Positions 8,330 through 61,338 of a DNA stretch of 64,000 nt are shown here, piece by piece. The stretch's first letter is position 1; the number at the start of each line of letters is the position of its first letter. The translations under genes were made by a program, and so were the position numbers. Origin of the DNA: Branchiostoma floridae (taxonomy: Eukaryota; Chordata; Leptocardii; Amphioxiformes; Branchiostomatidae); the NCBI RefSeq assembly GCF_000003815.2, contig NC_049985.1:2271643-2335642 (forward strand), read 5' to 3'. Below the pieces are notes generated by a model that was given only the letters and a program-made list of their open reading frames with translations, was not told the origin of the DNA and did not search any database.

Positions 8330-8855
8330 ATTGCTAAAGTCCAGGGTGTTCTGAAGCAGATGAGCGCCTCATACAAGGAATTTGTGCTTTTGGAATGTTC
8401 CCCTTAAAGAGTCTTCCAAGTTCTTCAAGCATGATTACAGATGTGAGAAATCAGTCCTTTAGAACCAGAACTTTCTGTTTTGTGAGGCACATTGAAGAAT
8501 CAAGTTCGTTTTAAGATGGGAAAACAGATTCCTTCATAATCATATGCAGATGTGTCGTAGCCCTGTTAACTTTTGCTGTCAATATCTTGCTGTGGCTAGA
8601 TATTGAGACCTGGAACGTCTCCAAACATGTTTGTCTTTGTGAGGTTTTTGAGAGCCCAGCAAAATGAGACTATGCTCCTCAGAAACAGATGAGTCTGCCC
8701 AACGTGTGGTAGCCCTGTTTGCTGCCTCTGCCCGTGTCCTTGAATGTCTTCAAACTTGTCTTTATCAACCTTAAGAGCCCAGCAAGAGGAGTCTATGTCT
8801 TCAGACGCACATGAGGCACCTCCTTAAATAGTCTTTTTCAAGAGATCACAGTCTT
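8330..8855 (-). repeat. degenerate tandem copies of the last exon's 3' end
   Basis: The sequence around the stop codon of the minus-strand secreted-protein gene (atgagcctgcccagcgtgtg, then gtagccctgtttgctg, at 8866-8901) recurs in weaker form at about 8690-8735 and 8545-8580. The segments gagcccagcaa and cctcagaaaca recur between them. Unit is roughly 150-170 bp. It forms the 3' flank, probably 3' UTR, of that gene. Confidence 0.7.
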
Positions 8856-11800
8856 TCAGAAGCATATGAGCCTGCCCAGCGTGTGGTAGCCCTGTTTGCT
8901 GTCTGTGTCCGTGTCGCCGAACCTGAGCTGTGTGACAGGCAGGTGTCTCTTGTGCATGAGCCAGCCGGAGTCCTCCTGCCAGCTGGCCAGCCCAGAGTCG
9001 CACTTACAAGCTCGGCCTCCGCCACAGGTGCCTGCAAACAATGACAGTTGTACGTTTAAAGCAAACGCAGATTTGTGATCTATTTGGGGAAACCGAATTT
9101 TGCCCAATTTTTCAGACAAACTTTCATGTCGCATTGACAGTGGACCTTAAAAACATTCAATTGATTTGATTCACTCACAAGGGACAGGCTGTCAATAATT
9201 TGGTCATTCTTACTAAGGAAGGTGCTACCAAGAGTTCAGCAAGAGTTAAGATCGAAAGTTTAGACTTATTAAGTTTTATTGCATAAAGATAAATTGGTTT
9301 ATACACATTCATACACATCATTTCTGTTGTGGAAGGCATCTTCTGAAGTAAAGATAACATTTGCCGTAGATGATAAGTATGTATACGGATTCGTTGTCAA
9401 AAAAGACACCAACTACAATATATTATAAAGCTCTATTTCTGTACACAAAGCAGAGTGCTCGCCAATAATCATTCGCATTTTCGATTTTTACAATATCAAT
9501 GGCCATCAAATATGAACTTTCATTCAACATTACCTGCTTCTCCACACGCGCAGTTGTTTGTCCCGGGTTTCCCCCCTCCCCAGTAGTCCTTTCTCCGGCC
9601 GTCAGCTGACAACCACCAGGCGAACCCCGTACTGCCTCTGTGCAGGACCGAGCTCAGGCATTCATACTACAAAGATGAAATATTGCAGGGAATTACTTTG
9701 CATCACACAAAGGTTCAGTTTTGCTAGGGTGTTCTAATGTTATTAATCTCAAATGGTGAAATGTTCCAAACCAAATGCTATTACCTTAGTAGATTAAAGG
9801 CAGTACAAAGAAGAAAATACGGCTTGAAAGTGGGGTAATATTCAAAAGAGTCAGTTTGATTCTGGAAAAACTGATCTCAGTTAATGTCTTTTACAATATT
9901 ACTCGTATCACACCTTCGCCTGGGTACCATCCTAACCCTTGGCTGGGTTCCGCTTTCCGCTTTTGGGGCATGGTCGGGCCCGGGTCCATTCTAACTCGGA
10001 GATAAAATAACCCGGGATCTAATCGTAAGCACATCGACAGGTACCCCAAAGTAATCCGGCAGTCCAACGGGACAAATTTGTGGCTTCGGGGTGGGGCTAC
10101 AGTCCCAACGACCACAGGGGCAAATGTGACCGTAATATTAAGCAAGCAAAAGGGGAGAGCCAACATACAGTAACTACGGACGACGGTACCCAGACTAATC
10201 AAACCTTGCTGTTATGTAAACATTTGTGTAATCTCTTAAGCTGGAGACCAAAGGTCCATGTACGATAGAAACAGAAAACACGCCGCCACCGGTACCTTGA
10301 TGAACTGCATACATCTCTTGGACCTCCTGATGACGGCCCGGATCTGCTCCAGGGACGTCCAGTAGGTGATGTTGCGGAAGTACGACCCGGGCTCCCCGTA
10401 ACCCTCCACCACCGTGCGGGACTCGCTGTCGTGCCCGAAAGACGACGCGACTAAAAACAATCAATACATAATGTTCACATAACGTTACATGTACGAGGTT
10501 ACACCTGCGTTTGGTTCAAGTCTTCAGATAACAGTTTCCCTTGCTGGTCTTAAATACTAATATGATTAACATCGTTCGGGCCTCGTTGTCGTGCCCGAAA
10601 GACGAAGCAACTAAAAACAATCAATACATAATGTTCACATAACGTTACATGTACGAGGTTACACCTGCGTTTGGTTCAAGTCTTCAGATAACAGTTTTCC
10701 TTGCTGGTCTTAAATATGTTTAACATAGTGCGGGCATCGCTGTCGTGCCCGAACGACGACGCAACTGAAAACAAGCAATACATGATATTCACATTCATGT
10801 ACGAGATTACAGATGAGTTTGGTTCAAGTCTTCAGATGACAGGTTTTTATTTTACTCGCAGTTCGTCGACACATTTAGCTAAAATGCCCGAATGTTCAGG
10901 ACACCGGAAACATTCAATGCACAATAAACCATCATCTCATAGTTCTGAGCACAGATGTGGTCTCATATGAGCTCAATTGGCCTAGAACGGAATGAAATCG
11001 TTAGGATAATAAAATACAACGTCCGTCCCTACCTGCATCTCCGACGCGTTCACACTGCACGGGAGTCGGCGGCACGCCCTGTCCCGGGCCGTCAGGGTCT
11101 ATGGAGTAAATCTCTCCCGAACGGAACTCTTTCCCCAACGTCTCGGAAACTTCTGTGCAGCTGGCAGGAAGAACTGGAAGGGAGTAAATGATTTGATACA
11201 TCTTTGGCAGGAATAATTTTCACAATAAATAATTTTACTTTCTTCTGATATCAAATTTCAATTTTGTTAATGTTGAATTTTAATTTTTGTAATGTCGAAC
11301 GCCATTTTACTCAAATTTTAAAGTTTGAAATGCCGAATTTCAAATGATGGGCAGTGCAGTTTAAAGCATTACTTCACATGAAATGTAATAATGATCAAAG
11401 ATGTCCACATAAGCACATATTTGCTAATGTTATGTTATCTTGTTCAGCAAAGGGCGTGCCAGTCAATGTGAATAGAACTAAATCTGAATCTGCAAGTGCG
11501 TGGCTTCATAAAACTCAGAGATAGCAAGATTTAAATGAACACTACTGAAAAATGTTTTTGTCTAATACAATTACCGGTATTGACAAGCTTGTTGGAGAAA
11601 TGCATACGAATGATGAGGACAGCTTTATTGCATGTCAAGAGCTGAATATTAGCCAAAGGTGATCATAAAATGTAGGAAGGTTGGTCCGTCAAAAATGGAT
11701 GCATGAGAGTCCCCACCATGACATGACTGACAGCCTCCCGATGACGTGTTCCACCCCGGTAAGTCCCTGCCCTGCGCCGATGACGCCGGTTCCCCGAGAA

Positions 11801-14800
11801 TTCCCGACAGCTTCTGCTGCAGAATCCGCTGCGACCGCTCCATCTCCGAGTTCCTCAGCCTGAGCCCCTCCACCTCGTCCAGCAGCTCGTCCTGGTCGTG
11901 AAGCTGTCCGTAGAGTTGTTGAAGTTCCTCCCTCAGCTCGCTGGCTGACTTCCCGTCCAGGGCCAACAGGCGCTTCTCTCTGTTTGGGGTTGTGACGCCG
12001 GAATCGTCTTCGCTGTCGTCTTGGTCCTGTACGTCTCTGGGCCCTATGATGCGCGGTGTGGTCGGGCCATGGTCGGGCTTGGAGGGTTTCTTACCCTTCC
12101 GCAGGGTTTCCATTTCCTGAAAAATATAAAAGTGATCGCATATGAAGTCATTGAACAGGTGAGCTAATCTTTCATTGGTCGTGACAGAAAAAAAATAGAC
12201 GTTATGTAACGTATTTATAGATTATCTATCGGGCGAGGTTTTTCTTTCCTTCCTGAGGGTTTCGATTTCCTGTAAAAGAGTAAAAATCATCTCGGACCTG
12301 TTGATCTCAAATTAACTCAATGTTTTGAAATGAATAAATAAATAGATAATTAAGTTGTCCACGGCGTAATGTCCCGTCCTTAGGATTGCTACACTTTCCA
12401 GTAGCGTGAATGCCAGGTGAGCGACAACAGGCGGAAATCGAACTCACGACCATTGGTCCAGAGGCAGGGTCTCTAACCACTGGGCTATGCTCCCAACGTG
12501 GTAGCATGACATTTCGGCGTAAGGGCAGTTTGGCCTCTAGCCGAACAGGACGATTCGGCACTGGATCCAGGAAGACTCGGGTTATAGTTAGGATTAGGGT
12601 TGAGTTAAGGCGTCCTCTTGACAGTCCTAGGGCTGATGCCGCATCGTCCTGATCGAGTAGAGGCCGACCTGTCCACGACCCGAAAGGTCGGACAATCACG
12701 AGACGCTTATTCCTATTTTCCCCTAACTATCGCAGAGTGGAATTTGTCATCACCAAGCACAGCAAGGGCATCTTCGCTAGATAGTTTTAAAGAACGCTTG
12801 AAGATAGATGGGCAAAAGTTGCGTCTGATAGGTCGTTCAGTGCAAAACAACCAGAAGCTGGCGTGTTATTCAAAAGGTCGGTGCTAGATGACAAAACAAA
12901 GACGACAGAAAAAGGCCACGTTTATTCCTATCAACTTCTGCTTGGAGAGTAGGTTATAACAGCTATATTGATATAGATACGCGCATATGTACCTTTAGAA
13001 GCGCCTGGTTCTGCTGCTGAAGCCGCTTGACCTCGTCCCACAGCATGTTGGTGGGGCGGCTCTCCAGCGCCAGCACCCGCTGCTCCATGACGTGATGCGT
13101 GCTCTGCAGGAACTCGTTCTGCCGCCGCAGCTGCTGAACCATCTCCTGAACACCCTGCTGGTCCAAGACCTGCAGAAACAGACAAGGTTCACTTTACTCC
13201 TGAACCATCTCCCTAACACCTGCGGAAACAGACAAGGTTCCCTTTACTCCTGTCCTGAACCATCTCCTGAACACCTGCAGAAACAGACAAGCTTCACTTT
13301 ACTCCTGAACCATCTCCTGAACACCCTGCTGATCCAACACCTGTGGAAACAGACAGGGTTCACATTACTCCTGAACCGTCTCCTGAACACCCTGCTGGTC
13401 TAAAACCTGCGGAAACAGACAAGCTTCACTTTACTCCTGAACCATCTCCTGAACACCTGCTGAAACAGACAAGCTTCACTTTACTACTACTGAACCATCT
13501 CCTGAACACCTGCAGAAACAGACAAGCTTCACTTTACTCCTGAACCATCTCCTGAACACCCTGCTGGTCCAACACCTGCAGCGAAAGACAGGTTTCACTT
13601 TACTCTCAAGGGCAGACACGACTATTTCTCTTGAACCATCTCCTGTACACCCTGTCTGTCTTACATACACCTGCAACAACAGGCAAGGTTCATTTTACTC
13701 TGAATCATTTGAATAACGATATCATCTACAGCAAGATACAAGGTTTCACTTTAAGAAGAGACAAGGCTATGTTTTTATCATTGAATGAATGTGTGAATGT
13801 ATGAATAAGTGAATGAGGATAAAGTGATAAATTTTCTGTGGCATATATAAAGTTGATTTAGACTCTCGAGTGTCTGTTTGTAAGTGGCAAAACACAACAA
13901 GATTAGATGCATTTTTTATTATAACAATGGTTAGGTCTTACTAATTAAGAAAATGTTAGAATTGTGGGACTCCTTTAAAACTGTGTCTGTTTTTTCGTTT
14001 GTCTGTTGGTTGTCTGTATTGCATACACGAATCAAGGCGTAATATATACTATGTAATGTTATGTGTATGTGTACCAATGTGATGTATATGTTTTAATGTA
14101 TGACCCCAGGAAGAATAGTGGATGCACATGTGTATTCACTAATGGGTGTCATTTTAACAATAAACAATATATCAGATTTGTACAGAATAGCACAAGCTCC
14201 GGACAGCTTTATTTCATCCACTCACACCGGGATGGATCCCTATCGTTTTCGAGTGGTAGGTGTGGCTCTCCTCAAGCACGGGACCTCCATTTAATTTCCT
14301 ATTCGAGTGACATTCTTAGCCTAGGTTTGGTACTCATTTCCACCTGAGTGGAAAATTAGTATATTTCCCAAGGGCACAGCATGTCAGGAGATTGAACCCA
14401 GAACCTCTGGGTCCAGGACTAGCACTCTAATCGCTACGCCTGCAAACAATATTTAGCTGTAAGTAGCTCTGAATGATTATGTTCCAAGTTTAAATATGTT
14501 GAAAGCATTCGTGTACAATGATTCCATGAAGAGTAGAGGTGTAAGTTGCTAATCGAGATCAAAACAAAGAAATAAACAAACAAATAAGATATAAGAATGA
14601 GTTATACCTTATTACATATATCCTTTATTAACCTTAATGTGCATTCCCGTAATGTTTAAAAGTGCAGTTCTGAGCCCAGTAAGTGATTCTAAGAATTTTA
14701 AATGTATCATCCATTGTAAGCAGCAGAAGAATTCATTGTCCCTACAGGGAACCCTGCCATTTTCTTCCGTTCCATTAGAAATAAGATCCATCATTAAATA

Positions 14801-17800
14801 TCTAAAGCGTATGACACATCCACTATTGGATACCTAACGTGTATTACACAACGCAATCAGACATGCCTATCTTGTGGAGATGAAATTCAATGCGTAAAAT
14901 TGAATTGTACATTTATTTCAGCGGAACAGATGAATGAATGACATTAAATATATTGCCTTGCATTCTGTGAATACATTGATATCTGATAAGTGTGATAACA
15001 CTTACATGCAAATGAATGTTGTGGAGTCATGTTAAAAACTTTTAGATTCCGTGGAAAAATTTGATACAACCAGGATATTCAGAAACAACTAAATGTCCGT
15101 CGAGAGTCAGCGCCAGTCCCAATGGCAATGGACGGTCCAGTCCGTGTTCCTCCCGTGTCAGCACGTGCCTGATAAACGTGCCGTCCCGACTGAACACGGA
15201 AACACGAAAGTTTTTAAAGTCAGCCACGATGATGTTGTCCTCGCCGTCCGTGATGACAGACCAGGGGCTGTACAGCTGACCAGGTTCCGAGCCACGTGAC
15301 CCGCACGTGAAGAGATAACGACCGGTGGGGTCAAATATCTTCAAGTTGTTGTTGTCACAGTCATTGACGATGATTTGGTTGCTGCTGTTGACGGTCACGC
15401 GGAGATAGGAACCCAGCTGCTGCTGACCTTGACCTTTATCCCCGAACTTCAGCATGACGTCACCGCTGGGACTAAGTACGAAAACTTGGTGCTCGATAGT
15501 GACGATGACGCGTCCCAAACCGTCAACAGCAACACCACGTGTAGCGCCTCCTCTCTGTGCAGCCCCTGTCACCTGGATGACACGTGACTCCCTCCCCTGT
15601 TTGTCCAGTACGTGAATCCTGTGTCCGTCCCCTGTCACCAACAGCTCACCGTTTGTCAGTGCCGCCACATACAACGGCTTGAACCTTAGGTCGACCTTCC
15701 TCTTGAAGGAGCCATCTTTGTCTAGAAATTGCAGGCGCAAGTTGCTATAATCAGCCACAACAATGTCTCCCTCTGCGGTGACAGCGAGCGAGCTCGGAAA
15801 GGCAAACTGTCCAACTCCACAGCCCTTCTTACCAACAGTTTTCACGTGTTTTAGACTCGAGCCGCCATTCCCGATCACCACGTTTGGTCGCACTTGCGTG
15901 ATTTTTTGCGGTGAGCACAAAGGTGTTTTCACCTGGTTTATTCCACCTACAAGTCTAGCTACTTCCTGCTCCAGTTCTCCGGTTGGTGGGTCAAAGGTCA
16001 AGTTCACAAAGTTCTTGGGAAGTTCAGACTTCTCAGTGTTTTTGTACTCCGCGGTTTGATCCAACCGTCCGGTCAGTTCTCCGGCCACCGACATGAGCTC
16101 CGCCGGGCTCCCGTACTCCAACACGTTGTCCGTGAACTGGACACAGCTCCTGGCTGAGGCCAGGTCCATCTCAGCTGCCTCCATGGCGGCTTCCATCTGT
16201 TTCTCCCGAGCAGCGTTCATGGCGCGAAGCTGAACGATTCTGTCGTTTCCCACCTTCTTCGCGGCCTCGATGATCGAGTTGACTTGTTTTCTGATCTGTT
16301 CTTCTGTTCGCTGTACCTGTGCAGACCACTCGTCCTTCACTGACTGCAACTCTTCTATCCACTTCTCACGCAGGTCTGCTGTGTTCTTGACTGTCGCAAG
16401 TTTTGCCTTGACCTTTGCCCCCTCCCTCTCGGCCGCCTTCTCTATCTCCACATACTGGTGATCTTTGTGCGCCGTGACCACACAGTGCAGACAGATGACC
16501 CGGTGGCAGGTGTCACAGTAGAACTTGTTCAGTTCATGGTGATCCTCACACTTGGAGGTCTCCCTTGCCCGGAGCTCGGCGGCAGCCTTGCCGGATTGGA
16601 GGTCTTGAACTTTGTGGGACCGATTAGCTTTGAAGCGTCCGTGCATATCGTTACACGTCTGACACAGGTAGTCAGTACACTCCAAGCAGTAGAACTGAGC
16701 CTTGTTGCCTACCTCACATACCGTACAGGGGATTCCATCCTCCGGCGCCTCGGAAATTTCCCCTTTCGGCTGTTGTTGTAGAATGTCGCGCAGTTTGCCA
16801 ACGAGGAAGTTGGACTTCAGCTCTTGGACGCCATTTCTGGGCAGTGGCACGTCCTGTCGGCATGTTGGACAGTCCAGTTTCCCTACCGGCTCTGTGGCCA
16901 GGAGCTTCTCCAAACACGGCTGGCAGAAGGTGTGAAGACACGGCAGCATCTTAGGCTGCTTGAAGTCCTCCAAACACACCTGGCAGACGAGAAATTCGTC
17001 TGTTATATCGCTGATCGCGTTCGACGCCATTGTCACTAAGCACTGAATGTTGACATTGGCACGCCCACTGAAACTTTAGAAGGGGTCACAGTAAAACGCT
17101 TTGAGCGTTCGACCTTATCAATTATGTTTACCTTCTATTCACACTTTAGGTCGTTCCATTCCATAAGTTTGGAGGGGTGCAGACCCACTGTCGATACGAC
17201 GCAAAGAGATACGATAATAAGGCAAGCAACATATAGCCTATAGGGATGAAAGGGTAATCGTAAGTTGTGTCGAGTTGTCGGAAGGTTGACCAGAATTTCC
17301 CTGGGTTCAAGGGGAAAGTCCTGACGGCCTTTGGGAACACCTTGTGATATCGCGTGGCGTAATCGGCAGCGCTTTGGGCTCAGACCTAAGAGGTCTTGGG
17401 TTCGAAACCTGCCATTGTGATTTAACTAGTACGAGGAGTACTGTACGAGTTTGTCTTCTAGTGAAAAATGTGATAGCACCCCTCTATTGCATTAACTCAT
17501 TAGTTAGAATAAATTTGTGTCTATCATTGAAAAAGGTAATAGCATCCATCTATAACATTAATTCACGAAAAAGAGGGGAAAGTTGGTTCTACTAGTGAAA
17601 GAATGTGATAGCACCACTCTACCACCTTAATTCACTAGTGAGAGTAAAAGGTCTGATCTAAATTAATTCTTGAAATAATGAGATACCATTGTGACAACCA
17701 TTGTCACGTGTAAAAGTAGCTAACATGGTTTTCAACTGAAAAACTTTTTGAACTAAAATAATGAGATAAATAGACCACTACCGGGTCAGTAAATTAATGT

Positions 17801-20800
17801 AAGGGAAGGGTGTTATCACATTTTTCACTACTAGACACAGATTTAGACCAGATGTATACCTTTTACTAGTGAATTAGTGTGATAGCACCCATTATCACAT
17901 TAAGTCACTAGGTAAGTGGAAAAAACTGCATCTACTAGTGAAAAATGTGATGGCACTCCTCTATCACATTAATTCACAAGTGAGAGAGGGAAAGTGTTGC
18001 TACTAGTGACAAAAATGTGATAGCACCCCTCTATCACATTAATTCACTAGTAAGAGAAAAACTGTGTCTACTAGTGAAAAATGTGATAGCACCCCTCTAT
18101 CACATTAATTCACTAGTATACGTAAGAGAAAAACTGCATACTAGCGAAAAATGTGATAGCACCCCTCTATCACATTAATTCACTAGTAAGAGGAAAAGTG
18201 TGTCTACTAGTGAAAAATGTGATAGCACTCCTCTATCACATTAATTCACAATTAAGAGGAAAAAGTGTTGCTACTAGTGACAAAAATGTGATAGCACTCC
18301 TCGGTACATTAATTCACTAGTAAGAGAAAAAACTGTGTCTACTAGAGAAAAATTCAATAGTAAAAGGAAAACATCTGATCTCATCAAGCAGAACGTAAGA
18401 TATTGCATTAATTTAAAGACACCACAGAGCAGAGTCTAAACTATTAACATTATAAAGCCTGTCATCGTCATCTCAAGTCACCATTCTGTAATCTTTATGA
18501 ACAACCAAAAACAGAATGGTACAGAAAGGTTAAAAAAGGTATGAAACATAGTTCTACATCAAGTATAATGCATAGCGTATAAAGTCCTCATCAAATATGT
18601 GCAAGCTACTCGTGCTGCATGATAATCTGTTGTATGGGGAAGGTTCAACTTAACGGAGTGCTGGATAGCATGAAGGATTCATGTACGTGTAATCTAACAT
18701 TGCACAAGTATCTAAAATTCCATGACCTGATACCTGGTTACTGAATCCTTTATTGACCTTTTTAGTACTCTTTGCTTGATGTATTGGACTTTTTCTAATA
18801 AAATGAGACAAGAGTCCATTTGTGGTACTGCACACCACGATAAAATTGACTAAACTTTAAACGCTAATATCTCGAAAACAAAACATTAGATTTGAACGCG
18901 GTTTTAACCTAACTCATTAGTTAGGGTTAACAATGTGCCTTTTTCTAGGAGTGGGTGGGGAGGGGGTCTAGGAGAGATGGTTTCTAACGGGCTTGGCTTG
19001 CCTTCCTGGCTATTGGTGAACGTTTTTCGCAGTTTAGCAGAATTTTCGAATTGATAGGAAGTATGAATTTTTCTGTCGCATAGAACAAATACATGAAACA
19101 CAGCAATGAATGAAAGAACACTTTCGGCGTCCCTAAAACAATCATTATTGACCATCATACTGAAGCATGTTTTCTCAAACTTTAATATTAAAAGTCTTTT
19201 GGTCTTTGTTGGATATACAATATTTACAAATAAAGTGCATTGTACAGTGGTTCATAGAGAGATACTTTGTTCTTGTGGAGATTGAAGTTAAAAGGTAAAA
19301 TGTAACTGTATCATAGCGGCACACATGGATGCATGGCGTTATATATTGTCTTCGGTGCTTTAGAAAAATGTTTAACGCTTTGGATGAATTGATGTCATTA
19401 ATATCTGTTCGCTTAGATTGAAAAATTGTATTAGTGATTTGATAAGTGAAGATCAAACTGGTTATTTGAAAAACAGATTCATTGGAGAGAATATACGAAG
19501 AATTTTAGAATTAATTGAATATTATGACACTAACGAAAAACCAGGACTGATCTTTATTGCCGATTTCGAGAAGGCATTTGATAGCCTAAGATGGGATTAT
19601 ATGTTTAAAGTTTTGAACTATTTTGGCTTTGGGGAATCTCTTATTAAATGGATTTCGGTTTTATACAACAATATTTCTAGTAAAGTAATAAACAATGGAC
19701 ATATTTCTGACGCCTTTCCTCTTCTCCGTGGTGTTCGACAGGGGTGTCCCCTCTCCCCCTACTTGTTTATTTTATGTGTAGAATTATTAGCCACAAAAAT
19801 CAGGACCAACGAACACATAAAAGGACTTAAGATACACACTCTGGAAACCAAGGTCTCACAGTTTGCTGATGATTCTAATTTTCCTCTGCAACCCGAAGCA
19901 CAATCTCTAGTAGCCCTCGTTGAAGATTTAAAGAATTTTTCAATAATTTCTGGCTTAAAACCGAACTTTGACAAATGTACGATTTTAAGAATAGGCTCTT
20001 TAAAAAACACAACTTTTTCTCTCCCTTGTGATCTTCCTATCAAATGGACTAATGGCCCTGTACAACTTCTAGGGATTATGCTGGGTTTAGGCACAACTGG
20101 TTATACCGAAAAATTAGATCAGAATTACTGGACAAAACTAGCTAAGATAGACAAGATCTTGCTCCCCTGGAGAGGACATTCCTTAACACTTTTTGGTAAA
20201 ATTGCCTTGGTGAACTCTCTAATAGTATCACAATTTACATATCTATTCATGGCTTTACCTTCTCCTAGCGCCAAGTTCTTTAAGGAGTATGAGAAAAAGA
20301 TATTCAATTTCATTTGGAATGGGCGCCCAGAAAAGATTAAACGCAAGGTTATATATAACACCTATGACTGTGGTGGTCTGAAATTAATACACTTACCCAC
20401 TTTTGATCTCACTCGTAAGGCATCGTGGATACCTAGACTATGGCAAGCAAAAACACCTTTAAGTAAATACTTGACTGATTTCCCAGATCCTGTATGTAAA
20501 CTTTACCCTTTCTTGCAATTATCTAAATATCATATAGACTGTATTTTCACTAAGTTTTCTCGGTCTGTTAGTCCTTTCTTCATCAATGCCCTTAAAGCAT
20601 GGCTTTCCTTCCAATTTAAGCCACCTGAAACACACCAGGACATACAATCACAGCTTTTATGGCTCAACTCAAATATTACTATAGACAGCAAGCCTATTCA
20701 CTTTAGAAAGCAAGCTACTGGTCAAATATTATTTATAAGTGACCTTTTAGATACAAATGGAAAATTTTTGTCATATAAGGAATTATCGCTGAAATTTGGG

Positions 20801-23800
20801 AAAACTCTTCAAATGATGGAATATAATCAAATAATCTCCGCTATCCCAAGCACCTGGAAAAGACATCTTAAGGATAAACCACTTACTATAGGACCTAATG
20901 CACCCTTCATATCAAACTATTCCTGGTTGGGGGCACGTAAGATAAATAAAGATATATACATGACAACTCTTTTGACAAATAACGTAGTCCAAACCCCAGT
21001 TAAAATCCAAACATATTGGGAAGAAATACTTGACATAATAATACCATGGAAACAAGTTTATAGACTGATATACAAGACTACAATATGTCCGAGACTAAGA
21101 TTTTTCCAATTTAGGATGTTACATAAATTTCTACCTACCAGAAAAATGTTATATATTTGGAAACTCTCGGACAGCCCTATTTGCATACACTGTGGAAATG
21201 AGCAAGAAGATACACTGCATCTATTTTGGGAATGTCCAAGAGTTTCCCAATTTTGGAGAGATGTCAAGAAATGGCACGAACGAGTATCGAGTGAACCATT
21301 ACACATAGATTTAGCAAGTGTAATTTTGGGTGATCTAACAGTAAATTCCCCTAGGCTGAACAATACACTAATATTAATGGCAAAATTTTTTATTTACAAA
21401 CAGCAAGAAAAACACCTATCATTAAACCATTTTATCTCATATATTAAGACTTCTTACAAATTGGGATTTATAATAGCTTCCAGAAAGAACAAATTGGCAG
21501 TTCACTACAGTAAATGGGGAGAAATACTTCACATCATTTCTTAAACCCCTCTATTTTCTTTTTGTCTTTTGCTACTCTTGTGGTTTTGCATTATTCAATT
21601 ATTTTCACTAGTATTTGAAGCGAAATGTTGTATTGATGGTTTCTTATGTGTCTGTACTTTATTTGAGATTATTCTTGTTTAAAGTTTACCATTAATTTAC
21701 ACTGATGTTACTTTTCTTATGTAAACGATACTACCTTATACTACTGTATTAGTTTATTTGGTTGGTATTATTTTCTTCCCGCTGTAGTATTGTTATCTAT
21801 TTTTGGATCCGTGGTTTATGTTTATGTTTTGTCTCAGTTATTGTCTCCATCTCTATTGTCATTATGTATTCTTCTGTTATTTCTGTTTATTTGAAATGCA
21901 ATAAATATTAAAAAAAAAAAAATCTGTTCGGTACAATAAGCGGTACATGCAGTAGTAGAACTAGAAGGATGTTGTGAAGTTGTTCGAAAAACGTTATTTT
22001 CCGTGGAAAAATATAATAGAATGAGTACATTCAGAAACGACCAAATGTCCGTCGTGAGTCAGCGCCAGTCCCAATGGACCGCACAGTCCGTGTTCCTCCC
22101 GTGTCAGCACGTGCCTGATAAACGTGCCGTTCCGACTGAACACGGAAACACGCCAGTTGTTACAGTCAGCCACGATGATTTTGTCCTCGCTGTCCGTGAT
22201 GACACATTCGGGCTTGTTGAGCTGACCAGGTCCCGAGCCGAGTGACCCGCACGTGAAAAGATGACGACCGGCGGGGTCAAATACCTTCACGTTGTGGTTG
22301 TCATAGTCACTGACGATGATTTGGTTGCTGCTGTTGACGGTAACGCGGAGGTCGGAACTCAGCTGCTGCTGACCTTGACCTTTGTATCCGAATTTCAGCA
22401 TGACGTCACCGCCGGGACTGAGTACAAGAACTTGGTACCCGATAGTGACGATGATGCGTCCCAAACCGTCAACAGCGACACCGAGTGTAGTTTCATCTGT
22501 CTCTGCAGCCCCTGTCACCTGGATGACACGTGACTCCCTCCCCTGTTTGTCCAGTACGTGAATCTTGTGTCCGTCTCCTGTCACCAACAGTTCACCGTTT
22601 GTCAGTGCCGCCACAGACCACGGCTTGAACCCCAGATCGACCTTCTTCTTGAAAGAGCCACCTTTGTTCAGAAATTGCAGCCGTGAGTTTTCATTATCAG
22701 TTACTACAATGTCTCCCTCTGCGGTGACTGCGAGATAGTCTAACTGCCCATCCCCACTGCCCTCTTCCCCAACAGTTTTCACGTGTTTTACACTCGCACC
22801 GCCATTCCCGATCACCACGTTCGGTTGCACCTGCCTGATTTGAGGTGGACGCAAAGGTGTTCTCACCTGTTTTATCCCACTTACAAGTTTAGCTACTTCC
22901 TGCTCTAGGTCACCAGCTGGTGGGTCTAAGGTCAAGGTCACAAAGTTCTCGGTCAGTTCAGATTTCACGGTGTTCTTGTCTTCCCCGGTTTGGTCCAACC
23001 GTCCGGCCAGTTCTCCTGCCACCGACATGAGCTCCGCCGGGCTCCCGTACTCCAACACGTTGTCCGTGAACTGGACACAGCTCCTGGCTGAGGCCAGGTC
23101 CATCTCAGCTGTCTCCATGGCGGCTTCCATCTGTTTCTCCCGAGCAACGTTCATGGCGCGAAGCTGAGCGATTCTGTCGTTTCCCACCTTCTTCGCGGTA
23201 TCGATGATCGAGTTGACTTGTTTTCTGATCTGTTCTTCTGTCCGCTGTACCTCTGAAGACCACACGTTCTTCACTAACTGCAGCTGCTGTATCCACATCT
23301 CATGCAGGTCTGCTGTGTTCTTGACTGTCGCCAGTTTTGCCTTGATCTTTGCTCCCTCCCTCTCGGCCGCCTTCTCTATCTCCACATACTGGTGATCTTT
23401 GTGCGCCGTGACCACACAGTGCAGACAGATGACCCGGTGACAGGTATCACAGTGGAACTTGTTCAGTTCACGGTGATCCTCACACTTGGAGGTCTCCCTT
23501 GCTCTTAGCTCGGCGGCAGCTTGGCCGGATTGCAGGTCTTGAAGTGTTACAACTTTGTGGGACTTGGTCACTTGAAGCCGACGATGGGTGCCGTTACATG
23601 TCTGACACAAATAGTTGGTACACACCACACAGTAGAACTGAGCCGAGTTCCCGACCTCACAGGCCGTACATGGGACTCCTTCCTCCCGCGCCTTGGAAGT
23701 ACTAGTTGCCCCTTTCGGCTGTTGTTGCAGAATGTCGCGCAGTTTGCCAACGAGGAAGTTGGACTTCAGACCCTTCACGCCATTTTCTGGGAGGGGCACG

Positions 23801-26800
23801 TCCTGTCGGCATGTTGGACAGTCCAGTTTCCCTAAAGGCTCTGTGGCCAGGAGCTTCTCCAAACACGGCTGGCAGAAGGTGTGAAGACACGACAGCATCT
23901 TAGGCTGCTTGAAGTCCTCCAAACACACCTGGCAGACGAGAAATTCGTCTGTTATATCGCTGATCGTGTTCGACGCCATTTTTACCAAGTACTGTATATT
24001 GACTCTGTCACGCCCACTAAAGCTTTGCAAAGGGTCACAATGCAAAGCTTTGGTCGCTTATCATTAATATTTACCAGGTTATGAACTTTTGTCGCTTTTG
24101 GACGATCCATTTCAGGCGTTTTGAGGGGTACAGTCCGTGCAGACCCACTGCTGACACGACGCAAAGGGATACGATGCATTGATAAGGCAGGCAAGATTGA
24201 CCGAAGGCCGTCGACACCGGCTAAGCCAGGGAAATATTGACTTCGGCACACCCACTGAAACTTTGGAGAGGGTCACAGTGTGAAACTTTGAGCGCGTATC
24301 ATTGGTGTTTACTATGTTATATGGCTTCAGGACGTTCAATTACAGGCGTTTACAAGGGTTCAGGATGTTTCAAAGTACGCCGTGTACAGAATAGTACAGT
24401 CAGGTTAAGAAAGGTATGGAAAAAACATCGTTCTACATCAGGTACTATGCATAGCGTATAAGTCTTCATCAAATATGTGCAAGCTACTAGTACTGTATTA
24501 TAATCTGTGTAGGTGAAAATCCAACTTAACGGTGTGCTGCATAGCGTGAAGGATTCATGTACATGTAATCTAACATTGCACAAGTAACTAAAATTCCATA
24601 ACCTAATAACTGATTACTGAATCCTTTATTGACCTTTTAGTACTCTTTGCTAGATGTATTGGGCTATTTCTAATACAAGAAGAGAAAAGTGTCCATTTAT
24701 AATACAGCACACCACGATGAAATTGACTAAACTTTAAACACTCATATCTCGCCAACAAGGCACTAGATATGAACGCGGTTTTCACCAAATAACTTCGTAT
24801 TAGTTAGTTTTAACAATGTGCCTTTTTCTAGGAGTGGATGGGGAGGGGTATAGAAGGGGCGGTTGCTAACGGGCGTGGCTTGCCTAGTGACCATCCTCGC
24901 TACCAAGTTACTGGCTATTGGTGAACGTTGTTCCAAAGTAGAATTGATTGAAAATTATGAATTCTTCTGTCGTGTAGAACTGATATATGAAACATTACAG
25001 TATATGTAAGAACATTTCATGTGTATCTGAAACAAGCCTTTATTGAACAAAATTTTAGATTATTGTAAATGCAGAAACTTTCGCGGTGGATTAATGCTCG
25101 CGGTTTTCGCAGCGGCCGCTTCACCGTGAATTTAAAACCACTGCGAACATTTATCCATAACAGTAAGAGACTACAATGTATGGTGCTACCACGAAATTAA
25201 TACCACCGCAAAAAAGTCCATTTCCCCGCTACCGCGAACTTAAATCTCCGCGAACTTAAATGCATTTACAGTATTTTTCAATCTTGTCATCGTTAATTTT
25301 ACATGTGGAGTCAAATACAGAGGATTTAAACTAAGACGGGGTTTTAAAGTGTATTTGAAAGCAATATTGCAAATATATACGAGGGCAACCTTTTTCATCT
25401 TTATTACGATAAAGATTACAATAGGGATAATTTTTTGTCTTTGTTGGATACAGCATATGTACAAATGACGAGCATAATACAATGATTTATAGAGACATAC
25501 TTTGTTCTTTTGGAGATTGAATTTGAAGTGTAAAATTGTATCTCAGCGGCACAGAAGAATGGATTACATTGTGTATTGTCTTGCATGCTTAAGAACAAAG
25601 ATAAAAGGCCTGTGATTACATTGATTTTTGCACAATAACACATGTAATAGAAGGATGCGGAAAGCAGTTAAAAACTTTATTTTCCGCGGAAAAATTTTAT
25701 ACAACCAGGAAATTCAGAAACAACAAAATGCCCGTCGTGGGTCAGCGCCAGTCCCAATGGACGGTACAGTCCGTGTTCCTTCCGTGTCAGCACGTGCCTG
25801 ATAAACGTGCCGTCCCGACTGAACATGGAAACACGATCGTTGCCAAAGTCAGCCACGATGATGTTGTCCTCGCTGTCCGTTATGACAGTCTCGGGGTTTT
25901 CCAGCTGACCAGGTCCCCGGCCATGTGACCCGCATGTGAAGAGATGACGACCGGTGGGGTCAAATACCTTCACGTTGTGGTTGCTATAGTCACTGACGAT
26001 GATTTGGTTGCTGCTGTTGACGGTCACGCGGAGATAGGAACCCAGCTGCTGCTGACCTTGACCTTTATCCCCGAACTTCAGCATGACGTCACCGCTGGGA
26101 CTAAGTACGAAAACTCGGTGCTCGATAGTGACGATGATGCGTCCCAAACCGTCATCAGCAACACCACGTGTAGCGCCTCCTCTCTGTGCAGCCCCTGTCA
26201 CCTGGATGACACGTGACTCCCTCCCCTGTTTGTCCAGTACGTGAATCCTGTGTCCGTCTCCTGTCACCAACAGCTCACCGTTTGTCAGTGCCGCTACATA
26301 CACTGGCACGAATCGCAGATTGACCTTCTTCTTGAAGGAGCCATCTTTGTCCAGAAATTGCAGGCGTTTGTTGCAACAATCAGTCACTACAATGTCTCCC
26401 TCCGCAGTAACGGCGAGCGAGGTCGGGAAGTAAAACTGTCCAGCCCCACTGCCCTTCTTCCCAACAGTTTTCACGTGTTTTAGACTCGCGCCACCATTCC
26501 CGATCACCACGTCCAGTCGCACCTGCGTGATGTGAGGTGAGCACAAAGGTGTTCTCACCTGCCTTTTTATCCCACCCCGGAGGGCGACGGCAGCCTGGCC
26601 GGATTGCAGGTCTTGAATGGTTACAACTCGGTGGGACTTGGTCGCTTGAAGCCGACTGTGGGTGTAGTTACATTTCCGACACAGGTAGTCGGTACACTGC
26701 ACACAGTAGAACTGAGCCGAGTTCCCGACCTCACAGGCCGTACAGGGGACTCCATCCTCCCTCGCCTCGGAAGTTTTCCCTTTCGGCTGTTGTTGTGGCT

Positions 26801-43945: not shown

Positions 43946-43984
43946 TTCTGTATGTGGCACTGTTTTAAATGAGTTATTAACATG

Positions 43985-49295: not shown

Positions 49296-52200
49296 CTATT
49301 GATTCTCCATACACCACACATAGGCATTTTGGAACATCCGTAACCATGGTGATGTCTTCATTGACTGATGCCAGTCTTGCGGCATCCACGGCCACTGCCA
49401 GGTGAGCGTGCAGCGCTCGGGGTGGGGCATCATGGCAAGATGGCGGCCGTCGGGCGAGCACAGTGCGGCCAGGCCGTTGGGCGATCCGTTGGGGTTGAGG
49501 GGGTACGCCGTGGTAGGCTTTCCGTCATCATCAACGTAGCGCAGAGGCGTGAGGTGGTTCTGCTCGACCTCTGACCTGATGGCATCAGTCTTGAACAGCA
49601 TCCGACCTGTCAATCAGTCAACCAATCATGTATCCATCCCTTTATCCATTCATCTATCCATCTATCAAGAGCTAGCTAATGGGTTAATATTTTCTATTAT
49701 GACTGCTAACTTGTCCCACCCAAATTAAGACAATCGATATAAACATTTAGACATTTTCAATTGCATTGTTACTCACTTCTTTTCAGTCCTACTAAAGCAA
49801 AGCTGAACTATAATTCTTAAGTCGGGCTTGACCAAATTTATGACTGTCCAGTCCCAGATAAGGAATGGGCTTCACAATATGCAATGGGTCTTCTGCAACA
49901 TTCTGACATCTCATAATTACCATCCACTTCTATCTGAATAACATGACTTCACAGAAGTGGCGGATTGCTCATTCCTTGACAAAGGACTGAAGTTAGATGG
50001 TAGAAACTTTGTGCAGGACCAATTTTTGTGCTGGAAATTACAGTTAAAATTTACGTTAGAATGACAATTTTACCAACTGAATACAGTTGAATTTTTAAGC
50101 TAACGAACTCCGTCCTACCTTCCCCATGCGCGACCCAGATCCCCAAGGTCGACCCCTCCATCCCCTTCAGCATCAGGGCGGGGCTCTCCTCGATTGCCAC
50201 GGTAACAAAGCGGGACTCGAAGCGCTCCGACACGTTGTAGGCCAGAAACACACCTTGCTGAGGGCTGGACTGGTCTCCTGCACAAGCCAAAGAAACACAA
50301 AAAATCAACTTCCAAGGGTCTGTACTCCATATTAGCGAAGGTGGCTCCTTGGCTTGCAAACGAATCTGCATGCTGTGATTTGGGCCCCTATGATGAGTTT
50401 CAACCAGCAAAAGGGGAATTTTCTGTTGTTTTGTAACAAAAGTTGACAAAAAATGTTGGCTTTATGTCACTAAATTTGGTCTTCAAAATGCAGGAAATTG
50501 TGTTTGTGAGCGTTATTAATTTTCCGGGGAGGATTTCCCAAGACCACCTACAATGCTCACACCTGCATCGCTTTCCACGTGGCTTTGTTGCACTAAGATG
50601 CCTCTATGCTGTGAAAAAAATCACTGCAACAAACACCCCAGCATACCTGAACCATCAGGGATGACCTGTCCGTGGTGCGGAGCCACCCAACCCAGCAGAC
50701 CCATCAGCTGACATCCATTACAGACCCCCAGGCTGAAGGTGTCGCTGCGGGCCCTGAAGGCACTGAACTGGGCTCGGACGGTTGGGTTAAACATCAGAGT
50801 GGCCGCCCAGCCTGGGACAAACAAACAAATACATAAATGAGATACTGCTGAAGGTGTTGAACTAAGCTTGGACAGTCAAGCTGAACAATAGCGTAGCCAA
50901 TAAACAAAGAATACACTAATAAGTGAAACACTGTCGCTGGAGGCCTTGAATCAGGAGGCCCTGAACTAATGACTAATTATTTAGAGAAATCCATCAAAAA
51001 GATTCAGATTTACTTCTCTTGGCTTGGCATGTGACATTTTAAAATGAAAATTAAATTTGAAAAGACTAAAAAAAATGCTCTGGGTGCCTTTAAAATGAAC
51101 ATACACCAACTCCTAACTCCTACCTTTAGCAGACCCCATGACGTCGGCGTAGCTGAACCCTCCCACGAACACAACCCCGCGGAACCCGTCCAAGGTGACC
51201 TTGCCGGAGCACAGGTCCTGCATGTTGACGTCCCACACCTATTTGGTAATTTTTTTTGTATTTATTGAAAATGACGACAAAATCATTACACTGGGCCGGC
51301 CTAGGCAGCATAAGCTGGTGACAGCTGACCCAACAAAGTTACAAACAAACATACAAACTTAAGCTAATCTAAAATGTGAACAAATAAAAGGCATAAGAAT
51401 TTACATTATAGTATTATACATAGCGTAATTGACACAGTGTAAAAATAATTGTACGAATTAATTGGTATTCAGTGTAATGCAGTGGAATAGATGGAAGGTG
51501 GTTAGTTGTGGATAATCTAAAATGAGGACAAGAGACAAGCCTGAAACTGTGGGAAGTGTGGGAGTCTAGGTAGACTGTCCCAAAGTCGGGATGTGTGCGG
51601 AATAAAACAGTTTTCACCTCGAATCCCGCCATGTGGAAAGCCGACACCATCTCACGGTCTCCGTTACTCCCCTCTTCTCTGATCACTGCAACCTTCGGGC
51701 GGGCGTCTGGATAAAGGAGGACGCAGAGGTTATTATAGATAAAAGCAACATATCATAACCTCTTAAACAACAACATATCATTGGAATGTAGGCATCAGGG
51801 TTGTCTTCAGCTTTCAATTCTTTCTGTTCCGCTCATTGTTTGCGAGCCCATGTTGTTGATTTTCCTTGTTGAATATGTAATGTAAAGCTTGTCTCTGTTA
51901 CTCTCTTCTCTGATCACCGCAACCTTCGGGCGGCGCTCTGGATACGGGAGGAAGCAGAGGTTACAGAATGTTTCCTTTTTCACAATAAAGCAGCATTGGA
52001 CAAAATTGCTTACCCTTTAGTATAGGGCAAGTATGTAAAAATCTACTGGCTGTAACCAACTTTTCATTTGCATGAAATCTAAATCTACCCATGCACCCTT
52101 GAAAAAATCACATTGTCCAAAACAGATCAGGCAAGTATGGTAAGGCATGTAGAAGACCATATAAATACTACACAATTGTGGTTTTATGGATGTCTCACTG

Positions 52201-55200
52201 AGGATGATAATGACAACTGACTTTCACAACCTAGTATGATCTTTTGATCTTCCTTCCAATTTTTACTTTTCTCTCAAAGTGTAAGAGTAAAAACTTATCA
52301 GCTGTAAATTGTCTGTTCAGCGAAGTCTTAATATATTTCATTTCTTTCCAAAGATTTGACTTGAACTGACAAGAATTCAGGAATCTTGTTCTATTTAAGC
52401 ATAAGCCTCCAGGTAAAGATCAAGTTTGTGCACCTCATGCCTCACACTAGTGACCTAATGCTTGATCAACTCAAAATCAGGTGAAGACTTGGTGAAAGCC
52501 TCATCAATTGTGAACATGTCAGAATTAAAACCAAAGCCTGCACTATCATTTAAAGTCTGAAGGAATCACTGATTGATTGAACGACCTTGTGATGAGTCGG
52601 CTGACCCGTTGACGGAAACCTGCGGCTGGGGCGTGTCTGATGGGTCAAAGGTCAGCTTGTAGGGCGGAGCCTTCCTAGCCCGGAGCCCAGCCTCCTCCTC
52701 GGCCACACACTGGGGGTTGGTCTGCAGCCTCTCCAGCTGGAAGCTAGTCTCCTCCCAGACGTCACGGAGGGCCGCCATTTTGTCGCTCAGAACTTCTGTG
52801 CCATTCACAGAGATTTTCACCTGCATGAAGGAAGGAAGATTTTAGAACTGTTTTAAGACCTGTATGAGGCATGCTTTGGCTAACTTATCTGGTGGTTGCC
52901 AATTTACTTTTCAGCACTTCTGCATCATTCAGAGACTTTCACCTGCATCAAGGAAGGGATACATTACAACTGTTTTAAGACCTAAATGTATTCACCTTCA
53001 GGAAGTAAGGTTTTATAGAACTGTCTTAAGACCTGTATGAAGCATGCCTTGGTTAACTTATCTGGTGGTGAACAATCTTGCTTCTATAGCTCAATGTTGC
53101 AGCTTTCAACCCAGGCCTGGTTAACAGTGTTTTGAACTTTACCCTGAATGCTCCTGTCAGGGGTTGAGGTCCGGAGGAAGACATATTTTAAAAGAGGTTT
53201 GCTCAGTGCACTTCAGGGCACTAAACCAAAACTCACTGGAACAGCATCTCTTCTCCCTAACTCAGAAACATTATGATTGAGCTCAACTAAATGACCCAAT
53301 CTGAGGCAAGGTTTACAAAGCCATCAGTCCACCATCTTATCTCAGTCACACCTTCAGTATCTTGAAGACCCTGTTCTAATTTCTCCCTGTCATTTATCTG
53401 TCTTCCATCCTTCAGACAGAAAGTAAGCAGTTGAGGGCTGAATGACAGATGTACATATGATGTCACTAGGTATACCTGTGATAAGTCAAAGGATATACAC
53501 AATGTACATGTACCGGTATACAAACTAGTATCTTAATAAAACAAACAAACTAGTATCTTAATAAAACAAACAAACAAAAAAACTACCCATACCTGAGCCT
53601 CTGTGCCTTCCCCTAGCGAGTGTCCGATGCGCTGGCAGGAGACGCCCGCCTGTGTGTACCTGGCCGCCACAGCGTCAGCCTGCTCCACAGTTGTCTCCAA
53701 CACCAACCCTAGCTCCTCTGCAAACAGCACGTCCACTGGGCTGGCTGGAGGGGACAGAGAGTTTTGTTTTACACTTAAAATCACTTCTCATAATTATACC
53801 AAGTGCCATATATCATACCGACACACACTGGAAGGGGCGGAAAGTTCTCTTTTACATCTCCAACACCAACCCCAGCTCCTCCGAAAACAGCACGTCCACT
53901 GGACTGGCTACAGGGGACAGAGAGTTCTGTTTTACACTAAAAATCAACTCTCATAATTATACGAGGTGTTATATATAATACCGACACACACTGGAAGGGA
54001 CAGAAAGTTCTCTTTTGCGTCTCCAACACCAACCCCTCCGCAAACAGCACGTCCACTGGGCTGGCTGCAGGGGACAGAAACTTCAGTTTAGAAAGGATCT
54101 GGTTCTACTGGATCAATGAATGAATTAATCAATGAAATCCTTCATGATCAGTGAATCAATCGATCAATTGACTAGTTGGTCAATCAGTCCATCAATCAGT
54201 TAACCAATCAATTGATCAATCACTCAACCAGTTAACCAATAAATCAGTTACCTAACCAATTAACAAGCCAAACAACCAACCAGTCCATCAATCAACTGAT
54301 CAATCAATCAATCTTATGAAATATCTACACCATTTCACACCAATCAACCAATCAATCACTCAATAAATGAATGAATAAATCAACCAACCTGTAACCATTT
54401 AATAAATCAATAAATCAGTAAGTCAATTGGTTGACCAATGAAAGAATGAATCAGTCAATATATCTATCAAGCTATCTATCAGCTAGTCATATTTGAATTA
54501 CCACATACATGTACATGTTCATTGCTTTCACAGCCTTAAGTTGCATCATGATTGATAAGAATGGGGTAGGGTTGTCTCCAGGAACTGTCCCATCCATCCA
54601 GGATGGAAATTTGCTTGTTTGGAGAAAAAGTATTAACCTATCTGTCCCCCAAATCTGAATTTCATGACATAAAGCTGTTGAAAATCTTTTTTTCTGAACT
54701 TAAAATGACACAATTAACATGGAAAAACAGAAACAATTGCCTCCCAAACAATGAAAAAATTTAAAGCTGGTGACAACCCTTTATTGGGGACACAGTTCGT
54801 AAAGTGATGACTTAAAGTTACCACTTATAAGGCAGTTAACCACTCAAGAAATACAGATACTATAGAGCCGTTTCCCTACCTTTGTTGTCTGCAGTGATGT
54901 TGACGTCCATCCCATAGTTCCCAGCGAAGGCCATCTCCAGCAGACATGTGACCAGGCCCCCGTCACTCACATCATGGCCTGCCGTCAGGAGACCCTCTGA
55001 AGGGACACGGGGAAATAAACTTTAACTCGACTTGAAAAAGGCAATACTACTTTTATGTCATACCTGGGCCACGATAACATTTGATACGGTTATTCCAGGC
55101 TGGATGTTAATTTTCCGTATCACACAGGCTTCCATCGATTAAATAGATATATTTACTTATTTGGTTAATTTCAAAGCAGACTAATAAAATGTACATACTA

Positions 55201-58200
55201 ATAGCTGAGCCTTCCTGAATTGTGTATAGTCTGTTAACAATGATCAAATAAACCACCATACTAGAAACAGCTGTGTTTAAGATCATGGCACAACCTGCAT
55301 CCAGTTTAAGTTGCAACAATTGGGGCATGTGCACATTTGTTCATCCAAAATTGGAGTTGTGCACCTAATTCTTGACTGTGGCTGCACCTGTGCACCTTGA
55401 TACTTTTGCATGCTATAGGGTTAAGATAGTATTGTACACCAATACACAGAATGCTTTTGAAATCTGCGCATCAGAAAAAGCAATTTTTATTGTACTTTGT
55501 TGATTGTATTACTGTTACAGTTTCAAGTTCTGAAGAGAGGCAGTAAGGTTTGTAATGATGCTCTGCCAAAATTCTACTTCTATTACATTCTATAATTGTT
55601 GTGTACCCAAATCTTAAGGTTAGGTGTACCAGTGCGCCTATTCCATTCACAAAAAGAAATTTTGAGCCCTGATTTTTCTTCTAATGTCTCAAGTAGTATA
55701 AAATCCAAGACTTCCCAACCTTCTATGAGTTTCTGCGTGATGTTAAATCCCTGCACCAGACGTTGAGGCTTGTCCAGATCGGGTGACTGGTCCCCCAGCT
55801 GGTTGTAGCACTGCGCCAGGGCTGTACCGCCTAGGCGGTGTCTCCCTCCGCTCAGGTCGACATAAAGCAGCGCACCTGAGGTACAGGACAGGTGAGAACA
55901 GGAGGAAACTCAGAGTTCCAACAGCTGGAACTGCTGTATTTCAGTTAAACTTATCACTGACTTGGGAAAGTACTAATTGTACAAATTAAAGTAATTTGAT
56001 GTAGCTTGTGTAATCCAGTGTTTATTGACCCTGCCTCTGGACGAAGAGTTTAATTCTCTGTTTTTGCTTTGACTTGCATGCTACTGAAAAGGATCCTTGG
56101 GATGGTATTTTAAGTCGTGGTCCACTTTGCATGTAAATACTGTACATATCGTCTGTCTTCTCTCATGATCAATGAAAGAGTAGCTCTTCAGCAAGCTAAG
56201 CTGGATAAAGGTCTTTTTCACGATTTACTATGCGTAAGACTCTTATTTCATCTACTTATAAGTAAAGTATCAAGTAATATACATGATGAAGAGAAGAAAG
56301 TGACTTCAGAACTAGAAATATTTGGCCCATGACGGATGACAACTTGACCTCTTACCTTTGCCCCCAGGGCATTTGAGGTCAGGGGTGACTGTTGCAGTGA
56401 TGTCGGGACAGGCAGCGTACACAGAGACAACCAGGGTGCCTGGATATAACACAGACATGAAGTTAGACAGGCACCCGGTCCAACAACATTTTATGATTTT
56501 GGGATGAAGGGATTGTCACTAGCAAAAAAAAAATTAAAATCACTAGATATTCTTGTTAGCAAACGACTTGTAGCAACTGAAATTTTGGGGCATGAGTATG
56601 GAACCTTTTATGGATATGTACCAAAAGTTGCCTTTTTGTGGTCAATACTTTTCAGGTGATGTCCTTTTGAAATTCAGAGGAGAAGAGGTGAAAAAAGCAA
56701 TGATTCAAATTAGTTTTGATGGCTTCATACCTACCAAATTTCTAACCCTGCCGTGTGCCAGATAAGCACAAGTGCTCGTCAGCTGGCCTGCCTAACAAAT
56801 CTCCTCCACTCGTGACGGTTCGAGAAAAGAGTCCATCTAGATCTGCCCATTTGAGGCAGGTCATGGATTTCTTTTACACCACAGGGTGGAAACTTAGCAA
56901 CTATACCCCAGGATTTGAGTCGTACCCCTTGTGTCTGTGTGAGAGAACTTTATTGAACCCCCCTTGTAACTTACCTGGAGACTTGACAGTTTCCTGGCCC
57001 ACCTTAGCAGCCATACTGAGGGAGTCCTTCCCCCCGTCCACGGCCACACCCAGCTCCTGCATGACATCACACATGGCACGGCAGGCGTGGAACAGGGCAG
57101 CACCTTCTCCCGGCAGCTTTGCAGGCCACATCCAGTTCCCACTGCACTTCACATCCTGGAGGAATGAAGGAGTGAAAGAGTGAGTAATAGAAAACAATGC
57201 ATGGCTGCCCTCTGGAGGAACGAAGGAAGGAAAAAGTGGTTTATAGGACATCACATGGCCCAGCAAGCGTGGAACAGGGCAGACCCCTCACCCAGCAGCT
57301 GGGCTGGCCACATCCTGTTCCCACTACACTTCACATCCTGGAGGAATGAAGGAAGGAAAGAGTGGGTTATAGAAAACATTGCATGGCTGCACTCAGGAGG
57401 AATGAAGGAATGAAAGAGTGGTCATAGAAAACATCACACATGGAAAAGAGCGGCACTCTCACCCGGCAGCTTGGCTGGCCACATCCAGTTCCCACTGCAC
57501 TTAACATCCTGTGTTAACAAAGAGTGATTTACAGAAATATCACACATGGCTCGGAAGGCACAGAGTAAGGTTGACATTCTGGAGGAACGAAGGAAGGAAA
57601 AAGTGGTTTATAGGACATCACATGGCCCGGCAAGCGTGGAACAGGGCAGCACCCTCTCCAGGCAACTTAGCTGGCCACATCCAGCTCCCACTGCACTTTA
57701 CATCCTGGAGGAATGAAGGAGTGAAAGAGTGAGTAATAGAAAATATTGCATGGCTGCATCCTGGAGGACTGAAGGAATGAAACAGTGGTTCCTACAAAAC
57801 TGGAACAGAGTTTCTGTTGCACCAGGCAGCTTTGAAGGCCACATCCAGTTTCCATTGCACTTCACATCCTGGTGGAACGAAGGAGTGAAAGAGTGGGCTA
57901 CAGAAAACATCATATGGAACAGGGCAGCCCCCTCTCCAGGAAGCTTTGCAGGCCACATCCAGTTCCCACTGCAGTTCACATCCTGGAGGAATGACGCGAA
58001 GGAAAGAGAGATTCATAGAAAACATTGCAAGGTTGACCCCTGGAGGAAGTATGGAATGAAAGAGTGGTTAATAGAAAACATCATATGGAAGAGCTACAAC
58101 ATCTGCGGGAAGACTGTTCCAGGTGTAGATTGCCCTGATGCTAAAGGAGGGGCTAGGGATAGGGGTTTGACAATCTTGTAGGGGTGGCCTCGATCTGGTG

Positions 58201-61317: not shown

Positions 61318-61338
61318 TTGTGCTATTTGGCTATCAAG

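Follow-up and report, generated by a model that had tools for sequence, protein, structure and literature searches.

Tandem duplications across exon boundaries in a 64,000-bp region of the Branchiostoma floridae genome, and their frequency at acceptors and donors of other genes

The analyzed stretch of 64,000 nucleotides from Branchiostoma floridae (the window) harbors seven arrays of diverged tandem duplications that cross splice acceptors and one that crosses a donor. Probably these are minisatellites of the mirage type, produced by frequent local tandem duplication of a generic kind and filtered by selection, with the window as a hot spot. In a sample of other genes from the same genome, acceptors were not enriched in such duplications and exon interiors were depleted of them. 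The phenomenon itself is already known. What is added here are further members and a rate of occurrence with donor, intron and exon controls.

Genes and open reading frames of the window

Two genes were placed, both on the minus strand:

49296..59728, minus strand: 3' part of PFAS (FGAM synthase), 13 exons, every junction open, Pfam matches GATase_5, FGAR-AT_PurM_N-like and AIRS_C
8856..37109, minus strand: second gene with eight placed exons, delimited by the exon ends

Judged by strand and phase only, the eight exons of the second gene would belong together. Two pieces of this gene gave no match at E <= 0.01 in a Pfam search. No exons of the 5' part of PFAS were placed in the window. Past the most 5' placed exon lies a plus-strand open reading frame of 482 aa (61189-62637), which presumably resembles a GPCR. 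Four long single-exon open reading frames of 527-687 aa occupy the minus strand at 15042-31624, with a placed exon of the second gene on either side. Parts of them lie in tandem blocks 3-4 kb apart that are 82-91% alike, and we take these reading frames to be TRIM-like. Another reading frame of 718 aa on the plus strand (19388-21544) is assumed to resemble a LINE reverse transcriptase. A run of 100 N (41026-41125), either an assembly gap or a masked stretch, is situated inside a coding-looking open reading frame. An intronic array at 35150-35742 (163-bp unit, 3.6 copies, 91%), in which no exon sequence was noticed, has the unit size of the boundary arrays yet contains no splice site. A further tandem array with a 66/136-bp unit (17864-18353) is positioned upstream of the long minus-strand reading frame at 15042-17075.

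Acceptor-side arrays

Duplications were sought by self-alignment of the whole window, blind to genes, at E <= 1e-3. All six acceptor arrays listed in an initial annotation proved to be real diverged duplications, in each of which the duplicated block spans the acceptor, with the additional copies in the upstream intron. A seventh, at PFAS exon 52820-52586, had been overlooked. The arrays are:

10410..10846, minus strand: acceptor-side array of 2.8 copies with a unit of ~160 bp; the true acceptor belongs to exon 10450-10296, and decoys lie at 10610 and 10764
12087..12291, minus strand: older duplication on the acceptor side, two copies at an offset of 153-154; start of the true exon at 12116, decoy at 12269
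13131..13708, minus strand: acceptor-side array with eight mapped decoys, units of ~50-66 bp and composites; true exon 13169-12993
51657..51963, minus strand: acceptor-side duplication at PFAS exon 51706-51618, offset 231-234 (self-alignment, copy mapping)
52787..53069, minus strand: duplication across the acceptor of PFAS exon 52820-52586, with decoys located 122 and 175 bp upstream (self-alignment, copy mapping)
53693..54089, minus strand: acceptor-side array at PFAS exon 53744-53593, unit of ~157-163 bp, decoys at 53907 and 54064 (self-alignment, copy mapping)
57063..58093, minus strand: complex acceptor-side array at PFAS exon 57155-56975, eight upstream copies, seven with a mapped decoy (self-alignment, copy mapping)

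Altogether 23 decoy acceptors were mapped, eight in the 13.1 kb array, seven in the 57.1 kb array, two each in those at 10.4, 53.7 and 52.8 kb and one each at 12.1 and 51.7 kb. The copy at 57396 in the 57.1 kb array aligns only as far as the AG, where it reads TG. A unit of about 150-165 bp had been described for many loci. This size was found in the arrays at 10.4, 12.1 and 53.7 kb, but the full range extends from ~50-66 bp (13.1 kb) to 231 bp (51.7 kb). The intact exon was also said to be always the copy nearest its donor. This does not hold for the donor-side copies at 35945-36112 and 32330-32700, and at acceptors it is not evidence, because such an arrangement is forced for any acceptor-crossing duplication.

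Repeats of such length and divergence do not align by chance at these E-values. Heterozygous haplotypes or repeats that were wrongly stacked during assembly could produce spurious arrays, and according to the globin paper (PMC3087553) an older draft had indeed mis-assembled one mirage; two arrays of the gene sample described below (L006 and L024) are 100% identical. Copies in the window, however, share 82-97% identity with the true boundary, differ in length and are partly decayed, a pattern not produced by stacking errors. Moreover, the sole run of N is far from the arrays and the contigs are chromosome-sized. An assembly artefact is thus very unlikely. When the genome (513,431,437 bases in 431 contigs) was searched with the stretch 10424-10840, skipping very common words, its only match was itself; with this single match in one assembly, a second haplotype copy of the 10.4 kb array was not found. 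The same result, within the limits of that search, speaks against a dispersed transposon or satellite whose copies sit at acceptors by chance, as does the fact that the copies include the coding start of their own exon, in full or truncated. Intronic arrays devoid of exon sequence (35150-35742 and 17864-18353) are present in the window and speak for such an element, but this origin of the boundary arrays is barely credible.

Donor-side and stop-codon copies

The copies at 35945-36112 and 32330-32700 had been related to the acceptor type. Self-alignment and copy mapping placed both on the donor side instead, and a further duplication involves the end of a coding region:

35940..36215, minus strand: donor-side duplication, end of exon 36283-36113 and its donor copied 152-158 bp downstream (self-alignment, copy mapping)
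32325..32593, minus strand: older copies of the donor-side piece of exon 36283-36113, ~3.5 kb further into the intron (self-alignment)
8679..8915, minus strand: coding-region end with stop codon (last 60 bp), copied 177 bp downstream (self-alignment)

At 83% identity, the copy at 35940-36063 repeats the terminal 3' piece of exon 36283-36113 together with its donor. The nearest donor copy retains its GT. In the stop-codon duplication, positions 8679-8738 and 8856-8915 are 88% identical at an offset of 177, and a splice site is not involved.

Duplication rates in a sample of the same genome

The sample consisted of 77 segments (275,557 bases), comprising 57 merged segments (219,037 bases) and 20 further kinesin segments. 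Segments were obtained through exon matches to the Pfam families p450, myosin head and kinesin, additional P450 exons by tblastn, and the ends of exons were adjusted by means of simple weights for splice sites, composed from general knowledge. An ab initio exon finder trained on the family matches was dropped, as its coding score failed to generalise to PFAS. A boundary was counted if it was located inside a local duplication block (offset 30-1000 bp) with at least 10 bp on each side. Left out of the counts were ends with low splice scores (acceptor < 3, donor < 2), terminal-exon ends of the added P450 exons, the intronless P450 in L002, L024 with its duplication within an exon (points of L024 thus being counted as outside exons), and two decoy copies of L062; L001 was never included.

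Among the boundaries of these three protein families, which are not random genes and include many myosin loci that are tandem paralogues, 3/207 acceptors (1.4%) and 2/189 donors (1.1%) were found in local duplications. Without the kinesin segment L062, which was added once its triple match in the kinesin match table was already known, the counts were 2/203 and 2/184. For points taken every 5 bp, which are mutually dependent, the fraction was 1248/39262 (3.2%) outside annotated exons, 500/17804 (2.8%) in introns at 40-300 bp from a boundary and 22/12035 (0.18%) in exon interiors; an earlier count of exon interiors that retained L024 gave 21/8240. The arrays had been attributed to one mutational mechanism acting at acceptors. 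In the sample, however, acceptors are no more often duplicated than donors and less often than points outside exons. Circular shifts of the duplications within segments expect a mean of 4.5 acceptors and 4.3 donors, so neither the three observed acceptors nor the two donors exceed shuffled positions, which for acceptors is the outcome named at the outset as speaking against such a mechanism. Acceptors and donors are alike, and both lie between introns and exon interiors, the order expected of a neutral process under a coding filter.

The suggestion that such arrays occur at a wider scale is supported by additional cases. In the kinesin segment L062 the exon start behind acceptor 1011 recurs behind acceptors 857 and 706. 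Among the P450 segments, acceptor 2296 of L028 recurs at 2204 and L015 contains one decoy. On the donor side, the exon end and donor at 761 of kinesin segment L074 recur ~175 bp downstream; its donor at 1582, one of two, is a weaker call. An exon of an SNF transporter (C7:214065-214349) gave matches at 214065 and 214263, the second of them partial, with an offset of ~168 bp, and is possibly a donor-side mirage. An exact 58-bp tandem duplication is present in a P450 coding exon (L024:1447-1563), where the frame is shifted between two well-matched parts. It may represent a recently arisen allele or a pseudogene, or else an error of the assembly.

The window compared with the sample

At E <= 1e-4 and with at least 10 bp on each side, 6/21 placed acceptors and 1/18 placed donors of the window are part of duplications. 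At E <= 1e-3 there are seven acceptors, as the array at 12116 passes this threshold but fails the stricter one. The acceptor fraction exceeds that of the sample (6/21 vs 3/207, Fisher 2e-5), with the window having been picked for its arrays. The comparison of window acceptors with window donors gave a P of 0.098, that of pooled acceptors (9/228) with pooled donors (3/207) a P of 0.15. Duplications also cover 291/1591 PFAS intron points (18%) and 821/5313 points between the exons of the second gene (15%), where other open reading frames were left unmasked. This indicates that the region is rich in duplications generally, and the window would represent a regional duplication hot spot.

Within PFAS all four arrays cross acceptors (4/13 placed acceptors), and none crosses a donor or is wholly intronic. 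In post hoc circular shifts four acceptors were spanned in 8.9% of cases, whereas four acceptors together with zero donors occurred in 0.4%, or in 1.2% when exon coverage was held low. The shift tests thus show a mild acceptor-only excess in this gene.

The 26 sample arrays have a median best period of 132 bp, and four of them fall within 145-185 bp. Periods of this range were found in 5/8 boundary-crossing and 3/10 other arrays of the window, and in 2/5 and 2/21 of the sample. Combined, the proportions are 7/13 vs 5/31 (Fisher 0.023, size-weighted 0.069), for a range that was set after the data had been seen and a window that was selected for its arrays. A class of nucleosome size at boundaries is possible. 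A purely generic process would not predict such an excess.

These features could be explained by a mutational process tied to acceptors, for instance breakage or template switching driven by lariats, R-loops or polypyrimidine tracts, which would duplicate the intron 3' end together with the exon start. It would account for the seven acceptor arrays against one donor array in the window, for the four out of four in PFAS, for the nine acceptors against three donors pooled at the stricter threshold, and for the size excess among boundary-crossing arrays. The sample, with acceptors not above donors and below the points outside exons, argues against it, as do the cases on the donor side that occur in the window, in L074 and in the published BflGb9 gene (PMC3087553). 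The size excess also drops to 0.069 when weighted by array size. We regard an acceptor-tied process as unlikely.

Origin of the arrays

In the preferred explanation, generic duplication followed by selection, short local tandem duplications with units of mostly ~50-250 bp would strike all along amphioxus genes, and the resulting arrays would then grow and decay. Duplications within an exon would break the frame and be removed by selection, whereas those within an intron would be neutral. A duplication across an acceptor would keep the true exon undamaged, as the final copy, and place the extra copies in the intron; one across a donor would be its mirror image. Both boundaries are affected in the window (36112) and in the sample (L074), and the same is reported for published globins (PMC3087553) and for PGBD5 (PMC3902484).

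The duplications themselves may have arisen by end-joining or replication slippage. Junctions were inspected in three of the most identical two-copy arrays of the sample, where L006 has 5 bp of filler, L024 1 bp and L027 5 bp of homology. These junctions fit end-joining or slippage and not recombination between long repeats, three cases being few.

A stronger reading is that some amphioxus genes, including PFAS, are hot spots at which splice boundaries, and chiefly acceptors, undergo repeated duplication in units of about nucleosome size. Ladders of near-identical working acceptors would result, of which the spliceosome would always take the donor-proximal one, and these ladders would feed new introns. 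We consider this reading unlikely.

Decoy acceptors and splicing

Many decoys score at about the level of the true acceptor, for example 8.7 and 7.8 vs 7.8 at exon 57155 and 8.3 vs 7.4 at exon 12116, and some are weaker (2.7 vs 8.0 at exon 52820). An anchor-free scan of seven arrays from the window and three from the sample found an AG at the place of the decoy in 19/21 copies anchored by their intron part and in 17/17 anchored by their exon part, omitting copies whose alignment stops more than 6 nt from the boundary (one for the intron part, in L062, and four for the exon part, at 13.1 kb). Of the two exceptions one reads TG and the other GA, the latter resembling a gap shift.

If joined to the true donor, all 23 mapped decoys of the window introduce an in-frame stop. 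For the 12.1 kb exon, whose donor was not placed, an arbitrary end was used, and the stop falls in the extension. Splicing must therefore usually choose the donor-proximal copy. From the sequence, exon definition may account for this choice, and decoy acceptors would stay intact because splicing takes the donor-proximal copy. The best donor score between 15 and 300 nt past the decoy and before the true exon was below 4 for 18/23 decoys. Better donors are present behind five decoys, four in the array at 57.1 kb (6.3, 6.3, 6.3 and 4.9) and one at 52.8 kb (5.1). As true donors score from 1.6 to 8.7, weak donors alone cannot separate all decoy cases. Ratchet splicing, with a decoy AG followed by GT, was considered by eye and rejected, as no arrays other than those at 13.1 kb and 52.8 kb agree with it.

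The stop added by every mapped decoy would also be expected if selection maintained decoys as regulated poison sites whose copy number tunes expression. A parsimony count, in which the AG columns showed 0 changes against a mean of 3.57 in the flanks, had pointed to selection on the decoy AGs. This conclusion was withdrawn, as the TG copy at 57396 had been omitted from the count. In addition, the AG retention of 19/21 and 17/17 fits neutral decay by a rough estimate, and stops occur in intron sequence anyway. Poison sites are a quite improbable explanation for the ladders.

Relation to known mirages and significance

Mirages have been reported in Adh3, BflGb6 and BflGb9 (PMC3087553). In BflGb6 the 3' end of an intron and the 5' part of the exon are repeated in tandem units of 150-160 bp, six or three depending on the haplotype, and in BflGb9 the 3' boundary of exon 2 is duplicated with 157 bp (PMC3087553). 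The link to amphioxus mirages drawn initially is, judged by the BflGb6 and BflGb9 units (PMC3087553), correct in anatomy. The same report describes the Adh3 mirage as somatically unstable, presents data suggesting that regular splicing is undisturbed and puts forward a model in which new introns arise from mirages (PMC3087553). Similar repeats occur in PGBD5, and TnC is cited as well (PMC3902484). The published mirages and the arrays of the window share boundary-spanning tandem units, an involvement of both boundaries, splice signals kept in many copies and an intact true exon (PMC3087553, PMC3902484). The window differs in that several exons of one gene are affected (4/13 placed PFAS acceptors), with up to eight mapped decoys per exon.

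Intron gain through tandem genomic duplication has been reviewed (PMC3443670). The AGGT model described there likewise involves short tandem duplications with splice signals (PMC3443670), but it duplicates an exonic AGGT and creates a new intron, whereas here an existing boundary was duplicated and no new intron was seen. A table of globin exons, used as a control for the published mirages, did not contain the repeated fragments. No genome-wide survey of mirages was found in the open-access literature searched, a scope outside which most subscription papers fall.

With the present counts, mirages move from a few reports on single genes towards a rate. About 1% of the sampled boundaries are affected, donors about as often as acceptors and both below the intron background, which argues for an origin by duplication and subsequent filtering. 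The natural ladders of decoy acceptors, with up to eight mapped decoys per exon, make exon definition and intron birth testable. If the hot-spot ladder reading were true, amphioxus would be a natural large-scale experiment in both.
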